DNA of 64,000 nt, from the NCBI GenBank assembly GCA_012026795.1, contig VEPM01000006.1:62001-126000 (forward strand), in the 5' to 3' direction. Numbering within the stretch: the stretch's first letter is position 1; each line of letters starts with the position of its first letter. A model generated the notes under the pieces. That model made no database searches, was not told the origin of the DNA, and worked only from the letters and a program-made list of their open reading frames with translations. This DNA is from Candidatus Methanoperedens sp. (GTDB lineage: Archaea; Halobacteriota; Methanosarcinia; Methanosarcinales; Methanoperedenaceae). A program made the translations under genes and the position numbers. Of the stretch, positions 5,495-56,154 are shown one piece after another.

Positions 5495-7387
5495 ATGATC
5501 AATTCAGAGGTCGGTAGCATCCTTTTCGGAAAATGGGTATATCAGGAAACCTATGATGTGCTAAGGGAAAATATAAGAAAAGCGCATATAGCGCGGAGTG
5601 TGCATGAATATGTGTGCAGTTCGTTATTATATTCGCTCATCGCAGGCTGGATATCACTTGTTTTCGGATATATTTTAGCCCGGAACCTGACACAAAACAG
5701 CTTTGTGATATTCCTGATAACTACAATTTTTGCAATGAGCGGCAGCTATGCTGTATACATTACATTGATCTCTTACCCGTCTTTTAAAGCGAAAAACCGG
5801 TCATATCGAATAGACCAGTCCATGCCTCATGCTTTAACCTACCTTTACGCATTGAGCCGGGGCGGGATGAATATTATTGATATGTTCAAGTCCCTGGGTT
5901 CATACATCCACATATACAGCGGCACAGCCGAAGAAGTAGCAATGATCGTCCGGGATATGGAATATTTCGGAATGGACATAGAGACCGCGCTTCATAATGC
6001 AAGCAGGAGGACACCTTCAAGGAAGTTCAAGGATTTTATCGATAATCTCATATCTGTAATAAACAGCGGCGGGGACTTGAGTCGCTTTTTTAAAAGCAGG
6101 TCTGAATATTACCAGGAGACTGCTGCCCGGGACCAGAAGTCATTCCTTGAGACTCTTAGTCTTTTCGGGGAGGTCTATGTCAGTACACTGGTCGCAGGAC
6201 CATTATTTCTTATTGTTATAATCGTCGTCCTGGGATTACTGAAAGGCGGGGTAGAATTGTTATTGTCGTTAATAATATATGTCGTAATTCCTGTTGGCAC
6301 CCTGCTCTTTTTAGTCCTGATCGATACTATCTCCGGGATTCGTGAAGAGATGCCAGTCGTTTATACCAGGGTTAAAAATCTGCTTGTTTTTAAAGACGTA
6401 CCACAACTACCCGCACAACAGCCAGGAGAATCGGGGAATATAATGAGACTGAAAAGGTATGAAAAATTATCTAATATAAAAAGCAGCCTGCTTCATCCCC
6501 TGAAAATATTCATTGAAAAACCTGGAAGGACATTTATTATTACAGTACCTATTTCCATGATCTATTTATTTCTCATCATAAGGGATCTTCCATCGGATAT
6601 TGATCTTAATAATATCTCCATGGGAAATTTCATTTCTACTGTTATATTCAAATTTTTAAAGGCAGTAGAAAACGATCTTTTGATAACGGTTCTTTTCATC
6701 ATAACCCCTTTTACTATTTTTTTTGAGCTGCGAAAACGAAAGATAAGGAAAATTGAAGATAGAATGCCTGATTTCCTGAAACGGCTTGCCGGTATGAATG
6801 AGGCCGGATTGACACTCACGCAGGCAATAGCGCACACGGCTGAGTCAAACATGGGAGTACTTACTTATGAGGTAAAAAAAATACACCGTGCTATCGAATG
6901 GGGCACTATAACTACAAGTGCTTTACAGAAATTTGAAAAGCGTATTGAATCAAGCGCTGTTTCGAGGATTATCACATTGATCATAAAGGCCAGCGAATCT
7001 ACAAGCGATATTCGAAATGTCCTGTCTATTGCAGCAAAAGATGCAGATATGGGGCAGCGGTTGAAACAGGAACGATTCGCTAACCTGTTAATATATATCG
7101 TGATAGTCTATCTGTCATTTTTTGTATTCCTGTTTATAATCGTTGTACTTCTTGTGTATTTCCTTGCAAAAATGCCCACTGGAGGGGCGGTTTCTATGTT
7201 CAAAACTTCCAGTCTTTCAAATATAAAAACACTTTTTTATCATGCCTCACTCATCCAGGGCTTTTTTTCAGGACTTGTGGCCGGACAGATGAGTGAAGGA
7301 GATCTGCGTGCAGGATTGAAACATTCTGTAGTTATGCTGGTCATTGTATATGCTGTATTTACATATTTCCTGCATGGAGTTGAGTGA
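5495..7387 (+). CDS. Double TadC/ArlJ-like membrane platform protein
   Basis: Integral membrane protein of 630 residues with two type II secretion F (T2SSF/TadC) domains in tandem, roughly residues 105-255 and 410-565, each followed by hydrophobic helices (LFLIVIIVVLGLL near 240 and LIYIVIVYLSFFVFLFIIVVLL near 545). The cytoplasmic helical motifs MPHALTYLYALSRGGMN and MPDFLKRLAGMNEAGLTL are the two copies of the conserved MPDxLxxLAxxxxxGxxL element. It would be the inner-membrane platform on which the upstream ATPase acts. The next gene's GTG overlaps its TGA by four bases, indicating translational coupling. Fused double-F platforms are common in euryarchaeal pilus loci. Confidence 0.88.
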   Translation: MINSEVGSILFGKWVYQETYDVLRENIRKAHIARSVHEYVCSSLLYSLIAGWISLVFGYILARNLTQNSFVIFLITTIFAMSGSYAVYITLISYPSFKAKNRSYRIDQSMPHALTYLYALSRGGMNIIDMFKSLGSYIHIYSGTAEEVAMIVRDMEYFGMDIETALHNASRRTPSRKFKDFIDNLISVINSGGDLSRFFKSRSEYYQETAARDQKSFLETLSLFGEVYVSTLVAGPLFLIVIIVVLGLLKGGVELLLSLIIYVVIPVGTLLFLVLIDTISGIREEMPVVYTRVKNLLVFKDVPQLPAQQPGESGNIMRLKRYEKLSNIKSSLLHPLKIFIEKPGRTFIITVPISMIYLFLIIRDLPSDIDLNNISMGNFISTVIFKFLKAVENDLLITVLFIITPFTIFFELRKRKIRKIEDRMPDFLKRLAGMNEAGLTLTQAIAHTAESNMGVLTYEVKKIHRAIEWGTITTSALQKFEKRIESSAVSRIITLIIKASESTSDIRNVLSIAAKDADMGQRLKQERFANLLIYIVIVYLSFFVFLFIIVVLLVYFLAKMPTGGAVSMFKTSSLSNIKTLFYHASLIQGFFSGLVAGQMSEGDLRAGLKHSVVMLVIVYAVFTYFLHGVE

Positions 7388-9639
7388 TTCTGGCCCGAAA
7401 AAACATTAGCATTTTTTTAAACTGCGAATCAGGATTAAGCGAGATAATTGCCGCTATTATGCTTCTGGCAATTGCGGTCACTATGATCGCAATAATTCAG
7501 ACTCAGTCCGTACCCGAATGGAATAAGGCGGTGGAAATGGATCATTTCAATGTTGTATATGATGATTTCCTGAAAATAAGATCCGATCTGAATGATGTTG
7601 CGCTGTTCCAGTTCCCGAAATCAAGTGTGGTCCATATGGGCGCCCACTACCCTGTCAGGTTGATATTTACCAATCCTCCTGACACATCAGGTACCCTGAC
7701 TTCAACAAATGATACATGGATAAATGTGAGTTATACGCCTTTTAACCAGACTCCGACATATTTCAATAATTCATCAACGAGCATAAAATTTGTGCCGAAT
7801 TATAATTATTATTCCAATTCTCCATCGCTTGTATATGAGCACGGGCTGATAATCAAAGATTTCGCAATTGACAATTACCTTTATACCGATACCAACCAGG
7901 CTATTTTCGACAATAATATAATTAATATCTTTATACTCTCTTATCCTCAGGAAACAGTGTCTTTTTCAGGAATAAATGCCCTGAATTATAATCTCCAATC
8001 AAAGATCAGCACATATAATAATACCAATGTAACTGTGACTTTTTATACCAATTACCCCCGGCTCTGGTATGCGCTTTTAAGAAAATATAATCTAAATCCG
8101 AATGTGTCTGGTAACATTGTAATAGTTGATTATCCGGGCAATATTACGATAAACACTTATATTTTCAACGGGTCAATTGCTTATGGGACAGGGGTATCTG
8201 CAAATACAACAATCCCGATACCCACACCTACCCCCACACCCACTCCAACTGAATACAATTATGTCTTTGACTTCCTGAACATCACAGGCATTGTGACTGA
8301 TTTCGAGAACGCCCGGAGCGCCAGCGATGAAGGGGCATTGGCTGCCTTCAATGAGAATGGTACCATTTCCATACCAGATTCGAATAATTATACATATGTA
8401 TCTAATAATACGATAACAAATGGCTCTATAATTAACTGGATAAATATGCAGAGTAACAATAGTGCATATGCCACGCTTACAGAGGGGGCAAATACAGTTA
8501 ATACGACGTACTGGTGGGGATTTAATACAACCATTGAGTCCTGGACCCATACATGGACTGGAAGTGATGGAGATGGTAACATCGGATGGGTAGATGATGG
8601 CAATGCTGCAGGTGGCATTTTTTCCAAATTAACTTCAAACAGTGGTAGTCCTAAGACAAGAATTTCAACATGGAGATCCCCGCAATTTACATGGAATGGC
8701 GACATACCTTCGTCAGCAAGTCTTTATTTTGATTGGAGGGTCAGAACATACACCGGGGCCTCGCCTGGTAATTATTATGTTCAATTGGTCAAGCCAGATG
8801 CTTCCGTAGTCCAGATATATCCCACGACTCCTTTTAGTGCAACTGCATCATGGTCTTCTAAGTCAGCATCGCTGTCAGTAAGCGACTTTTCGCAGTCAGG
8901 AAACTATCAGCTTAAGTTGCTCGCTACGTTGAATACACAGGGTACAGATGGAACTCAGACTGTTGAGATCAGATGGGACAATCCAACTATTACTCTTGGC
9001 ACAACGACTTATAGCTTGAATATAACCACAGACACTGTCTCAGTTCCTGGTGCAGATATCCAATATCTTGAAATAAATTATTCAAAGACTGCTGATGATA
9101 ACTATGCAGTTTATGTATTCAATGGCTCTAACTGGAACAATAGGGGAACCCTTAATTCGGCAACGTGGACATTGTTCAATTATACTCTGACCGGCGATGA
9201 ATACAATAATGGTACTCCGAAGGTCAGGTATGTGGATGAGGATCCCTCTGGGTCCACACAGGGCAACCTGTATATCGATTACCAGCGCGTCCACGGCATT
9301 ACAACCGGTACTCCTTCTGTATATCATATGAATATCACGACAAACACATCAGACATACCCCAGACCAGCAATCACATCCTGCAGATAAGATACAACACTT
9401 CCGGAGATAATTTCACATTGCAGATCTGGAATGGAACATCATGGAACAACAGGACTGCGCTGAATGACACTTCTTTGTCTTATCGTAACGTTACTCTGCT
9501 TCCGGATGAGCTGATCCTTTATAGTAATACAGAAGGTATTAACAAATATTATACACTTGTCCGATATCTGGACATGGATACAAATACAACCCAGCAGGGC
9601 ACAATTTATCTTGATTATCAGAGAATTTATAATAATTAA
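7384..9639 (+). CDS. Giant pilin-like surface protein with class III signal peptide
   Basis: A 751-residue exported protein. The N-terminus has a polar leader followed by ESGLSEIIAAIMLLAIAV and more hydrophobic residues (about 18-40), the prepilin (class III) signal cut after Gly by the archaeal prepilin peptidase. After the helix comes a DUF7289-like beta-rich region (HFNVVYDDFLKIRSDL), then a PTPTPTPTPT linker near residues 278-290, then repeated beta-sandwich modules; the segment EINYSKTADDNYAVYVFNGS recurs in altered form as QIRYNTSGDNFTLQIWNGT. Asn-x-Ser/Thr sequons are very frequent, suggesting N-glycosylation. The GTG start overlaps the preceding stop. It is probably the substrate of the upstream ATPase/platform. 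Far longer than an ordinary pilin, so adhesin or minor tip protein is more likely than major pilin. Confidence 0.75.
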   Translation: MILARKNISIFLNCESGLSEIIAAIMLLAIAVTMIAIIQTQSVPEWNKAVEMDHFNVVYDDFLKIRSDLNDVALFQFPKSSVVHMGAHYPVRLIFTNPPDTSGTLTSTNDTWINVSYTPFNQTPTYFNNSSTSIKFVPNYNYYSNSPSLVYEHGLIIKDFAIDNYLYTDTNQAIFDNNIINIFILSYPQETVSFSGINALNYNLQSKISTYNNTNVTVTFYTNYPRLWYALLRKYNLNPNVSGNIVIVDYPGNITINTYIFNGSIAYGTGVSANTTIPIPTPTPTPTPTEYNYVFDFLNITGIVTDFENARSASDEGALAAFNENGTISIPDSNNYTYVSNNTITNGSIINWINMQSNNSAYATLTEGANTVNTTYWWGFNTTIESWTHTWTGSDGDGNIGWVDDGNAAGGIFSKLTSNSGSPKTRISTWRSPQFTWNGDIPSSASLYFDWRVRTYTGASPGNYYVQLVKPDASVVQIYPTTPFSATASWSSKSASLSVSDFSQSGNYQLKLLATLNTQGTDGTQTVEIRWDNPTITLGTTTYSLNITTDTVSVPGADIQYLEINYSKTADDNYAVYVFNGSNWNNRGTLNSATWTLFNYTLTGDEYNNGTPKVRYVDEDPSGSTQGNLYIDYQRVHGITTGTPSVYHMNITTNTSDIPQTSNHILQIRYNTSGDNFTLQIWNGTSWNNRTALNDTSLSYRNVTLLPDELILYSNTEGINKYYTLVRYLDMDTNTTQQGTIYLDYQRIYNN

Positions 9640-43101: not shown

Positions 43102-44998
43102 TTATCTTCTCAATCCATTGTTCTTTAACAGGGCAACAAGCATTGTTATTGCAAAGACTGCAATTATTGCCTCAAATCCCGGTGTTTCTTTTGGTACCGG
43201 AGTTGAGGAGGGCTTTACCGGTGCTAAGTCTGCTGTGGTTTTCTCAACTACTTCCGTTGGCACAACCTCAGCTTTCATTGTAGTTATTGCGAAGCTTCCG
43301 AAGCTATCTGTGTTTGCCTCATAGAAGGTATACATATCATCCTCCTTTATTTCTGAGGTCACAAGATCGATCCATTTGCTGCCATCCCATCTAACCATTC
43401 TCAAATCGTTACCTGCATTCGCGATCCAGGTGTTCTCAACTCTGAATCTTATCTGTCCCTCTTCGATATTCTTACTGCTGGCCCAGACGTTCAAATTCTT
43501 ATATACGGTTCCCGATAAGGCTGTTATTCCAGGGTTCTTTGTTGGACCTTTAAGAGCCTCAACTTTCAAAGCCATATTCTTTTCAGTCTCTTTGCCAGTA
43601 ACAGCGATTTCGTATATACTGAGTTCAGGGATTTTAAACGTAAATAATACTGGGGTGTTTAATATAAGGTACTTTTCATTCATATCTGAGCGATCTATAT
43701 TGTCATATGGCTCTGCTGATACTACCCCACCACCTATACCTCCATCACTGCTGCTGCTGCTTTGAGTTTCAGTAGTTGTTATGATGGCTGCATTTACTGT
43801 TACGGATATAATTTCAATATCAATTCCACCGTAAATATCGCTTGAACTGAATTCCCATATGTAAGTTCCAACATCACTGCTATTGGTTGACCAGGTAAAT
43901 TCACCTGTCAGTGGGTCGATTGAACCTTTTGTTGCATTTGTTCCATATGTTATTGTGTCGCCATCAGCATCCGCAGCACTGACCGTGAAATTAAGCAAGT
44001 TACCGGCAGTTACGGTTTTATCCGATATTCCTGCCTGGACAGGTATATTGTTACTAATTTGTATTGCACTGGTTAAAGGAACTGGATTTAATGATCCTGT
44101 GCCCGAACTGTTGAATGCATAAACCGAAATGTTGCTCCAGCCGTGCGGGCCAGGTGTTGAATTGTAATAAGTGACAGCACTTCCGTTGTTCCATAAACCA
44201 TTGACAATGACATTATAGCTGTCTGTTACATTACCAGGTCCTGAAGACCAGGTATAATTGATCCAGAAGTTGCCCTGTGAACTGGATATACTTACTGGTG
44301 ATGGTGGCAGGTAGGTTTCTGCTGCGTTTACTGTTACGGTTATTATTTCAGTATCAATTCCACCGTAAATATCGCCTGAACTGAATTCCCATATGTAAGT
44401 TCCAACGTCACTGCTATTGGTTGACCAGGTAAATTCACCTGTCAATGGGTCGATTGAACCTTTTGTTGCGTTTGTTGCATATGTTATTGTATCGCCGTCA
44501 GCGTCCGTAGCACTGACCGTGAAATTGAGCCAATTACCTGCAGTTACGGTTTTATCTGATATTCCTGCCTGGACAGGTATATTGTTCTGTATGCTTGCAT
44601 TGAACCATACTTTTATGCTATCCACATTACCGGATGTATCCACTGTCTGGGCTGAAAGATTCTGGGTATAATGTGGGGGATAAGTAATATTCATGAAATT
44701 AGTGGTATTACTAACATTCATATACACACTATCATTTGCGAACTTGAACATGGTATGATTAAAGTCCACAAAACCTGGATTGACCCATGTGTTATTTATC
44801 CAGAAATTACCTGTTGCCGTTTGTGGATCTGTTATGCTTGACATCGTATCAGAACGATTTGCCCTGAAATAGTCATAAATAAAAGCTCTCCCAGAAGAAG
44901 ATCCGGCACCAGAAATAAATAAACCAGCCTGATTGACAACAGTGTTGAAAGTTAAACTATTTACCTGAATCCATGATCCGCCTTCACTTGTACTAAAA
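43102..44998 (-). CDS. PGF-CTERM surface protein, C-terminal part (frameshifted from upstream part)
   Basis: The main frame starts at ATG 44844 (580 residues), but open coding continues upstream in this frame to about 44998, where it meets the frame of the 174-residue N-terminal fragment. Two near-identical Ig/cadherin-like (He_PIG) modules (SDKTVTAGNWLNFTVSATDA; LTGEFTWSTNSSDVGTYIWE) lie either side of a fibronectin-like spacer. Then comes a PGF-pre-PGF domain (DRSDMNEKYLILNTPVLFTF, FRVENTWI) and the C-terminal PGF-CTERM sorting signal, a Pro/Thr linker then TPGFEAIIAVFAITMLVALL and basic residues, processed by archaeosortase A and lipid-anchored. Many N-x-S/T sequons. It ends at TAA; converges with tsr3. 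Confidence 0.85.
43787..44052 (-). repeat. 266-bp direct repeat, copy A (Ig-like module)
   Basis: This copy and 44321-44586 have equal length and read the same with scattered differences (for example ATCGCTTGAACTG against ATCGCCTGAACTG). They encode the two He_PIG modules. High DNA identity suggests recent duplication or gene conversion. Confidence 0.85.
44321..44586 (-). repeat. 266-bp direct repeat, copy B (Ig-like module)
   Basis: Partner of copy A, 534 bases apart start to start. Copy B encodes the module with VTAGNWLNFTVSATDADG, copy A the one with VTAGNLLNFTVSAADADG. Confidence 0.85.
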
Positions 44999-45517
44999 TG
45001 CAGTATAAGAAGTGCCGGTTTTATTAAGCATTAAATAAATTGGATATGATGTAATTTTGACAGGGGTATTATATGCAGGAATATTATTTTCTTCTTTTTT
45101 CAAAATAAGATATTTAAAGCCGTTAGCAGTATAATATTCAAAATCCACAAAATTATTATCATCACTGTAAAATATAAGTCCTCCACCTTCGTAGTTTGTT
45201 GTGGGTATAGCGGATAGTTTAGTAATGATTGATAAGTTGTTATCTGTTATATCCTGAAGAAGTAACGGGGCGGTAGCATCATCTATATTTGTACCATTTG
45301 TAACATTCATTTGGAAGGATGTCCCGGTCATACTCCAATTTGAGGGACTTTCTCGTATCCAGTGCCACCTCATGGTATCTAACATACCAGTATTAAATTC
45401 ATCATTATATTTTGTATCATATGATGCCAGCGCAACCTGAGTTGTCAGCATCATTAAAAATACAGATACTACCGATATCTTTCTAAGTTTTTTACCCGCT
45501 TTAATTGATTTTAACAT
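44993..45517 (-). CDS. Surface protein N-terminal part (signal peptide + LamG-like domain)
   Basis: A 174-residue frame with a signal peptide (basic MLKSIKAGKKLRK then VVSVFLMMLTTQVALAS) and a beta-sandwich domain (YNDEFNTGMLDTMRWHWIRE, GGGLIFYSDDNNFVDFEYY) like the DUF1349/LamG-type modules. It stops with TYTAF-like SYTAF at a run of four T (44995-44998); removing one T continues AFSTSEGGSWIQVN into the downstream PGF-CTERM frame. So this is the front half of one protein of about 800 residues. A good ribosome site, GGAGGA, precedes the ATG (minus strand about 45524-45529). Either a true frameshift mutation, a phase-variable homopolymer or a sequencing error. Confidence 0.8.
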   Translation of the reverse strand: MLKSIKAGKKLRKISVVSVFLMMLTTQVALASYDTKYNDEFNTGMLDTMRWHWIRESPSNWSMTGTSFQMNVTNGTNIDDATAPLLLQDITDNNLSIITKLSAIPTTNYEGGGLIFYSDDNNFVDFEYYTANGFKYLILKKEENNIPAYNTPVKITSYPIYLMLNKTGTSYTAF

Positions 45518-54549: not shown

Positions 54550-54635
54550 TTTCAAGTATTCAACACAGCAATTTAACCATTATTTTTATATAGTCAACCT
54601 GCATATATTGACATGTGTTTCTACCTTTAAACGTC

Positions 54636-55880
54636 ATGGAAATGATAAGAAAAGCAACGGGCTGGTGCCCCTGTGCAGCATCATTAAACAGTAATGAGGA
54701 GACAGATATGGTATCGTATGAAGGAAAGCTCATAGATAAAATAAAAGGCATGGGATTAAGGGAAGCTCTCAGTTTTGTGCATCTTGTGTTTGGAGCATGG
54801 CTGGTAATAACCGCGCTCAGCGTCCTGGCAAAACCAATGATTTTCCCGTGGTGGTTCATGGAAATAAACACAATTTCATCCGGGATACTACTAATAATAG
54901 GCGTGTCATCCCTGATGATCTTTTTTAATTTCATAAAATCTGCCAATATTCACAGGATACTGGCGCTTGTGAATATTACCCTGTTAATTGGTTTTTCCCT
55001 GTACCTGAGCCAGTCCCTGGTTTCAATTGAATATACATATTCTGTATTCGATAAGCCATATATGGGCTATGCTTTTGGGTTTGTGACACTCATACTTTTT
55101 ACACTTATCATCGGAACACCAAGTATCCTGACTTTACTTAACAAACCCGCAGAGGAAAAAAATCCAGGATTCCTCAAAGCAACTTCATTGATTCTTATTA
55201 TCATATTTGCATCTCTTGGCGTATATTATCTTTATCTGGGTAAACAAAAAGATGCCATGCTGGCAGAAGATTTCGGGGAAAATGGGGCATATAAGCTATA
55301 CAGGGTCCAGGAGGGTTCAGCATCATATTATGATGCGCAACATCCTTATTTCCTTGATTCGGTCGGGGATACTACAGGACATCATATCTCAGAGGATACT
55401 TATAAAGCGATCCAATTTTTACAGAATAAAGAAACCGGTAAGGTTCTTGCATGGTGGGATTATGGACTGGAGATCAAAGCTGCGGGAAAAGAGCCTGTCA
55501 TCAGTTACGCATCAGAGGCTATAAGGACTACAATAGCAAGGCCTGCGTCCTTATATGACAAATTTGAGCAGGATGAGAAAGTAGCGGATGTCTCTAGGTT
55601 TTTCGCCACTGATTCTGAGGAGGTTGCGAAGGGAATTGCCGGGAAATATGGTGCAAATATAGTGTATATATCCAGACAAAGTATGAATTACTTGATACCG
55701 GTGATGATGCTTGGAGCTAATATCACTCCCATGACCCGGGATGTCAATCTTAATACCCCTGAGTACCCTGAAACAGTCGTAAAATCTACGATGGGATATA
55801 AATTCAATTCAAGTGCACGACTAAATTATTTTGATAAGATATTCGAAAACAAGGATGTCATAATTTATCAATTAAAATAA
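54636..55880 (+). CDS. DUF1673-like membrane protein with AglB-type WWDYG domain
   Basis: A 414-residue membrane protein in two parts. The start MEMIRKATGWCPCAASL carries the IRKxxGWCP motif of DUF1673, a Methanosarcinales family, and is followed by four to five helices up to about residue 205 (FGAWLVITALSVLAKPMIF; FGFVTLILFTLIIGTPSIL; SLILIIIFASLGVYYLYLG). The soluble part has GKVLAWWDYGLEIKAAGKEP, the WWDYG signature of the oligosaccharyltransferase AglB/Stt3, then VADVSRFFATDSEEVAKGIA and GANIVYISRQS, which match the region after WWDYG in AglB. It lacks the 13-helix transferase core and thus the catalytic DxD loops, so it cannot be a complete AglB. ATG 54636 is preferred over GTG 54615. 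Function unknown. Confidence 0.7.
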   Translation: MEMIRKATGWCPCAASLNSNEETDMVSYEGKLIDKIKGMGLREALSFVHLVFGAWLVITALSVLAKPMIFPWWFMEINTISSGILLIIGVSSLMIFFNFIKSANIHRILALVNITLLIGFSLYLSQSLVSIEYTYSVFDKPYMGYAFGFVTLILFTLIIGTPSILTLLNKPAEEKNPGFLKATSLILIIIFASLGVYYLYLGKQKDAMLAEDFGENGAYKLYRVQEGSASYYDAQHPYFLDSVGDTTGHHISEDTYKAIQFLQNKETGKVLAWWDYGLEIKAAGKEPVISYASEAIRTTIARPASLYDKFEQDEKVADVSRFFATDSEEVAKGIAGKYGANIVYISRQSMNYLIPVMMLGANITPMTRDVNLNTPEYPETVVKSTMGYKFNSSARLNYFDKIFENKDVIIYQLK

Positions 55881-55908: not shown

Positions 55909-56154
55909 ATGGATGCAATTATCATGAAAGACAGGGAGATTTTCTTTGGAACAGGCATTTTAACAATTATGGTAGGATTCTTTTTGCTGGTCTTTGTGCA
56001 ATCAATCACAATGGACCTCGGCGGCGGTAATTTCATCCAGGTATCAACTATATTTGACGGGGGGTTCCTCATATTGATGGGAATAGCGATCGTATTATGC
56101 TGTTTAAAGGAATGGGATTCAGAGAAAGGAAAAAAACCTGTCATGAAAAAATAA
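55909..56154 (+). CDS. Two-helix membrane protein, 81 aa
   Basis: A small membrane protein with two hydrophobic helices (FFGTGILTIMVGFFLLVFV and GGFLILMGIAIVLCCL) and a Lys-rich C-terminus (SEKGKKPVMKK). The ATG at 55909 is used; ATG 55924 (MKDREIFFG) is an alternative. It starts 28 bases after the WWDYG protein on the same strand and could be co-transcribed. No family is recognised. Confidence 0.6.
   Translation: MDAIIMKDREIFFGTGILTIMVGFFLLVFVQSITMDLGGGNFIQVSTIFDGGFLILMGIAIVLCCLKEWDSEKGKKPVMKK

Follow-up and report, generated by a model that had tools for sequence, protein, structure and literature searches.

What is a domain of the archaeal oligosaccharyltransferase (OST) doing on a short membrane protein? 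We met this question in a window of 64,000 nucleotides (the whole stretch of DNA that was analysed) from Candidatus Methanoperedens sp., a member of the Methanosarcinales with a genome of 3.59 Mb, whose close matches include Candidatus Methanoperedens BLZ2 and isolate LFW-24. An initial annotation, made from the sequence alone, had described one gene of the window as encoding a short membrane protein of four to five helices, with a GWCP motif and an AglB-type domain carrying WWDYG, and this description was correct. The open reading frame runs where it had been placed, from ATG 54636 to the stop codon at 55880 on the + strand (414 aa), with GWCP at residues 9-12; hydropathy and the structural model both give five helices. 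The frame is also open upstream as far as GTG 54615. There is one copy only of this gene in its own genome. The features of the gene and its neighbour are the following:

54615..55880, + strand: MGWCP-tailed five-helix membrane protein with an OST central-core ectodomain; 421 aa from the GTG, 414 aa from ATG 54636.
54636..54707, + strand: N-terminal MGWCP tail, predicted cytoplasmic; about 25 residues, to which the DUF1673 homology is confined.
54756..55259, + strand: five transmembrane helices, about residues 41-65, 72-98, 103-125, 149-167 and 177-208, from hydropathy and the model.
55260..55877, + strand: OST/AglB central-core-like domain, residues 209-414, predicted extracellular; profile, family-model and fold matches.
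55452..55466, + strand: WWDYG, residues 273-277; WWD invariant in the family, YG variable.
55909..56154, + strand: small hydrophobic protein of 81 aa, a conserved neighbour, five more genomes (BLZ2, LFW-24, G016, G019 and G003) having a homologue beside the gene or beside the regulator.

The protein is therefore a chimera of three parts: a tail that is portable, a body of five helices and an OST core. Its predicted topology is N-in/C-out, because the number of helices is odd and the outer domain is of the AglB type.

Regarding the C-terminal domain, it is homologous to the central core of archaeal AglB. Single-sequence searches with the window protein gave weak matches, whereas the profile-profile comparison with the AglB core regions reached P 98.6% and E 9.2e-16, and an orthologue (L078) matched the family models of the STT3-PglB core, PF21436 at 8e-4 and TIGR04154 at 1.3e-5. 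Structure prediction, the check that the initial annotation had proposed, found the AglB-like fold: the AlphaFold2 model (pLDDT 72) was matched by Foldseek to AfAglB-S2 (PDB 3vu0) with TMt 0.73, rmsd 3.7 and probability 1.00. The membrane part had no similarity to AglB in the profile-profile comparison (E 0.28), and its five helices do not amount to the GT-C domain, with acidic catalytic (DxD) motifs, of an OST. The protein therefore lacks the catalytic GT-C module and is not an OST enzyme. We also considered whether the core domain arose recently from the short AglB that adjoins the gene at some loci; this is unsupported, the identity being 21-23% to the short AglB and 20-25% to full AglBs.

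The term DUF1673-like, which had also been applied to the protein, is right for the N-terminal tail and wrong for the body. DUF1673 proteins, mostly from Methanosarcina, align over the first 25 residues alone (P 96%, E 1.8e-9); when the tail was removed nothing aligned (body E 0.065), and the five helices have no detectable relation to the DUF1673 body. The MGWCP tail of DUF1673 (PF07895) is recognised over 25 columns, but the whole protein scores 9.2 bits against a gathering cut-off of 30.4 bits. Full membership in DUF1673 was rejected, because the homology is confined to the tail. We clustered 168 tail-bearing proteins on their bodies; whole-length clustering merges all of them through the tail. 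The bodies formed nine groups and one singleton without detectable mutual BLAST similarity at the threshold used, on which these groups rest, so that remote relations between some of them could still exist. They include DUF1673 proper (88 proteins), the OST-core protein (25) and groups of 21, 20 and 5, the last of which weakly resembles bacterial PH domains. The tail is the sole part that these diverse bodies have in common. One protein of 601 aa (G007, L072:3816-5618) carries the MGWCP tail twice, another tail-bearing membrane body being fused ahead of the OST-core protein.

The available parts of two papers report a lineage expansion with the MGWCP motif in Methanosarcina, of unknown function (PMC4158269, PMC4390880), and place DUF1673 among the abundant families of archaeal dark-matter islands (PMC4158269); these parts make no mention of a regulator.

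A search of the genomes of the order for the same fusion and its neighbours, also suggested at the outset, showed that the fusion recurs. The target-gripping part of AglB occurs on an unrelated membrane protein in Methanoperedens and in related methane-cycling archaea: orthologues were found in other Methanoperedens genomes and in three further families of the order, with identities as low as 37%, and conservation at this distance means more than chance. The gene was present in 20 of the 60 relatives sampled, and it is therefore dispensable.

This search also revealed a linked regulator that the initial annotation had not seen. It is a protein of 148 residues, encoded upstream on the same strand in 22 of the 28 orthologue loci; the six others comprise two at contig edges (L061, L068), three of the window's clade and one in genome G058. 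The regulator (model pLDDT 89) contains a helix-turn-helix (HTH), weakly similar to that of Tfx-type factors, and a CxxCx5C motif that is invariant; with 17.4 bits against the cut-off of 60.25 bits of TIGR00721, it does not reach the level of the Tfx family. Its stop codon overlaps the next start codon as NTGA in 42 of 54 distinct copies, the Methanosarcina copies having no overlap. The order-wide search found a GWCP gene at most 1.2 kb after 26 of the 29 testable regulator copies, and counted 87 regulator-bearing genomes among the 186 of the order (97 among the 238 of the class). In Methanosarcina the same regulator heads arrays of DUF1673 genes.

Two kinds of loci deserve mention here. In a Methanosarcinaceae genome (G148:C1:5533711-5542167), one regulator is followed by eleven DUF1673 matches in a row on one strand. 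At L101:936-1944 (G009) and L121 (G184), the tail coding sequence is kept behind the regulator and the GWCP motif or the following body is lost or exchanged, which looks as if bodies had been swapped behind a fixed tail.

Upstream of the window gene there is no regulator; what we found are the following elements:

54584..54592, + strand: TATA-like box TTTTATATA, conserved ahead of the operator in orthologous regulator promoters.
54593..54612, + strand: putative operator, inverted repeat GTCAACCTGCATATATTGAC, 0 mismatches; the same repeat stands at regulator starts in 51 loci.
54615..54632, + strand: remnant regulator start (GTG, VFLPLN), aligned with the MFLPLN starts and promoters of the regulator; common to BLZ2 and LFW-24.

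The regulator starts examined (51 loci) have a TATA-like box and then, at -22 to -3, between this box and the start codon, an inverted repeat with the consensus GTMAAC-N8-GTTKAC. The exact form GTCAA-N10-TTGAC is present in 28 of the 51 and the rest are close variants, with for instance GTAAAC or GTTTAC arms. At the window gene, as well as in BLZ2 and LFW-24, the regulator's promoter, its operator and the codons for VFLPLN (the regulator's own MFLPLN) are joined straight to the tail. This arrangement points to an ancestor of the window's clade in which the regulator frame was lost by deletion, its promoter, operator and first six codons becoming fused to the gene. It also suggests that translation probably begins at GTG 54615, not at ATG 54636, and the gene is probably leaderless from this GTG. 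In G058 the operator is kept at the same place, with a degenerate regulator start that runs into a stop codon, and this loss is independent of that in the window's clade. Each of the four genomes (the window's, BLZ2, LFW-24 and G058) has another regulator copy elsewhere. That of the window's genome lies on contig C19, ahead of further tail-bearing genes; its promoter, with a two-mismatch operator, is the sole other site at a related gene there, since the genome-wide pattern search returned the window gene, the C19 promoter and one unrelated two-mismatch site (one match in the reversed control).

The absence of a catalytic part, together with a tail and a promoter that tie the protein to a DNA-binding regulator, makes it look like a sensor or helper and not like a glycosylation enzyme. 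Among the roles that the initial annotation had proposed, that of a regulator or sensor is the best supported, through the linked HTH regulator and the operator, both unseen by it. Specifically, we judge the chances evenly balanced that the protein works beside the regulator in the membrane, as its sensor or partner, tagged by the tail and exposing an OST acceptor-binding domain to the exterior of the cell. The small HTH regulator would repress promoters bearing the inverted repeat beside the start site, as the position of the operator between TATA box and start suggests. The MGWCP tail at the inner face would bind or titrate the regulator; this contact is proposed because all the bodies have nothing but the tail in common. 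The state of the outer domain, in which a sequon-like stretch of a surface protein, with its Ser/Thr, may perhaps sit, would change the binding between tail and regulator and hence the output. In the window's lineage the membrane gene took over the promoter and operator of the deleted local regulator, so that the C19 copy would act in trans. Counting for a sensor or partner are the AglB-homologous core with its invariant WWD, the missing GT-C module, the regulator upstream at most loci and its overlap with the next gene, the GWCP genes that follow it, the tail as the sole common part, the conserved operator and the purifying selection described below; moreover, the regulator was lost twice with the operator kept and another regulator copy present in trans. 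Counting against it, many orthologue loci are without an adjoining glycosylation gene, the DK/MI region described below is not conserved, the Tfx likeness of the regulator is weak and the gene is dispensable.

In OST, the +2 Ser/Thr of the sequon sits in a pocket made of Trp-Trp-Asp and the second DK/MI residue, the DK or MI motif being defined on a kinked helix (PMC3703281). The WWDYG of the initial annotation persists in the orthologues as WWD, invariant in 20 of 20, and not as a whole, since 10 have retained the tyrosine and 4 the glycine. The DK/MI region is MxxL-like in most Methanoperedens copies and absent in other families; because this half of the Ser/Thr pocket is not conserved, peptide binding by the core domain may have been lost. 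It is thus conceivable, although we regard it as rather unlikely, that the OST-core fold has been co-opted as an ectodomain that binds another ligand or plays a structural role, with sequon binding gone and the link to the regulator still in place. The variable positions just described would agree with this, and so would an insertion of about 20 residues after WWD, specific to the OST-core family, and the other tail-bearing bodies, which are unrelated to glycosylation. However, WWD is invariant at 37-41% identity, where invariant columns make up 18% of the core domain (20 orthologues), which argues against such a reuse.

An accessory subunit of OST, whose core domain would recruit or present acceptor segments to a catalytic AglB while the regulator merely sets its amount, had also been suggested and retains some support. 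WWD is kept, two complete AglBs are encoded elsewhere in the window's genome, and a short AglB-like protein (STT3 6e-13) lies inside the regulator operon in four genomes (G003, G005, G009 and G019). Nevertheless, most orthologue loci have no AglB beside them, the short AglB is missing from most genomes sampled, it is present in G009 without the OST-core gene, and the MGWCP tail is also found on proteins unrelated to glycosylation; we consider an accessory subunit unlikely.

Regarding the wider glycosylation context, sequon-rich surface proteins had been announced in the window and two such frames, candidate surface glycoproteins, were found more than 9 kb from the gene, at 7384-9636 (34 N-X-S/T) and 43105-45030 (21 N-X-S/T). 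On contig C33 of G003 (METP1; L086:2639-5823), the regulator, a short AglB-like gene and an internally broken OST-core gene copy adjoin. In six Methanoperedens genomes (L060:301-3573, also L061, L062, L065, L070 and L072) the locus has moaD/moeA-like genes at its flank, together with an Agl23-like gene of the GT-C type (TIGR03663, 1.7e-94 in L060); this last gene lies past the moaD/moeA-like genes, and therefore its association is probably one of neighbourhood only.

A conflict or defence-type locus, in which variable membrane proteins under a repressor would be toxic effectors or immunity parts, is very improbable: arrays of fast-changing membrane proteins behind one regulator and the dark-matter island abundance of DUF1673 (PMC4158269) would fit it, but the core domain is conserved under purifying selection. 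A phage or defence origin was rejected, since searches of PADLOC, PHROGs and phage records gave no match. A functionless, decaying or truncated copy of AglB, which the broken copy in G003 might recall, is scarcely credible and was rejected, as the frames are open in most orthologues, the helices are not AglB-derived and dN/dS is 0.20-0.30 overall within the window clade, constraint on the core domain being no looser than on the helices, so that purifying selection acts on both halves of the gene.

Returning to the sensor or partner of the regulator, we also put forward, as a doubtful extension, that in Methanosarcinales the OST acceptor-recognition domain senses, outside the cell, Ser/Thr (sequon) segments left unglycosylated, and would signal through the MGWCP tail, which is portable, to an HTH regulator that is dedicated to it and autoregulated, so giving feedback control of surface glycosylation; more generally, the tail would let many different membrane sensors plug into one regulator. 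If true, the presence of an OST core without catalysis on a membrane protein of the signalling type would give a near-universal glycosylation domain a new function, and could help to explain how archaea monitor their surface glycosylation. One regulator, one operator and a portable tail also give the DUF1673/MGWCP family a testable hypothesis. What is new here is the link of OST-core/MGWCP proteins to the regulator and its conserved operator context; our literature search found no paper that combines an STT3 fusion with a regulator.

Finally, the window protein can be compared with four known systems. With the central-core (CC) domain of STT3/AglB/PglB (AfAglB-S2, 3vu0; PF21436) it shares the fold, WWD, the C-terminal strand pair and the place after the last helix; it differs by having no GT-C catalytic helices, and its family by the variable YG and DK/MI and by the extra segment of about 20 residues following WWD. 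With the DUF1673/MGWCP proteins (PF07895, arCOG06827) the N-terminal MGWCP tail, the regulator and the type of operon are common, whereas the body is not detectably related, carries an extra outer domain and scores far under the Pfam cut-off. We define here a regulator-linked MGWCP-tailed group, with the tail and either the regulator or its operator ahead, to which the window gene belongs through the operator. The regulator resembles Tfx-type archaeal transcription factors (TIGR00721; PDB 8hno/8hnp) in its HTH region, by a weak sequence and fold match, and differs in a C-terminal part that bears CxxCx5C and in a score far under the cut-off. Membrane anti-regulator/sensor pairs of the transmembrane anti-sigma type are an analogy only, without homology: in both a regulator is co-transcribed with a partner that has an inner tail and an outer domain, and the promoter is putatively autoregulated, the interaction between tail and regulator being putative here.
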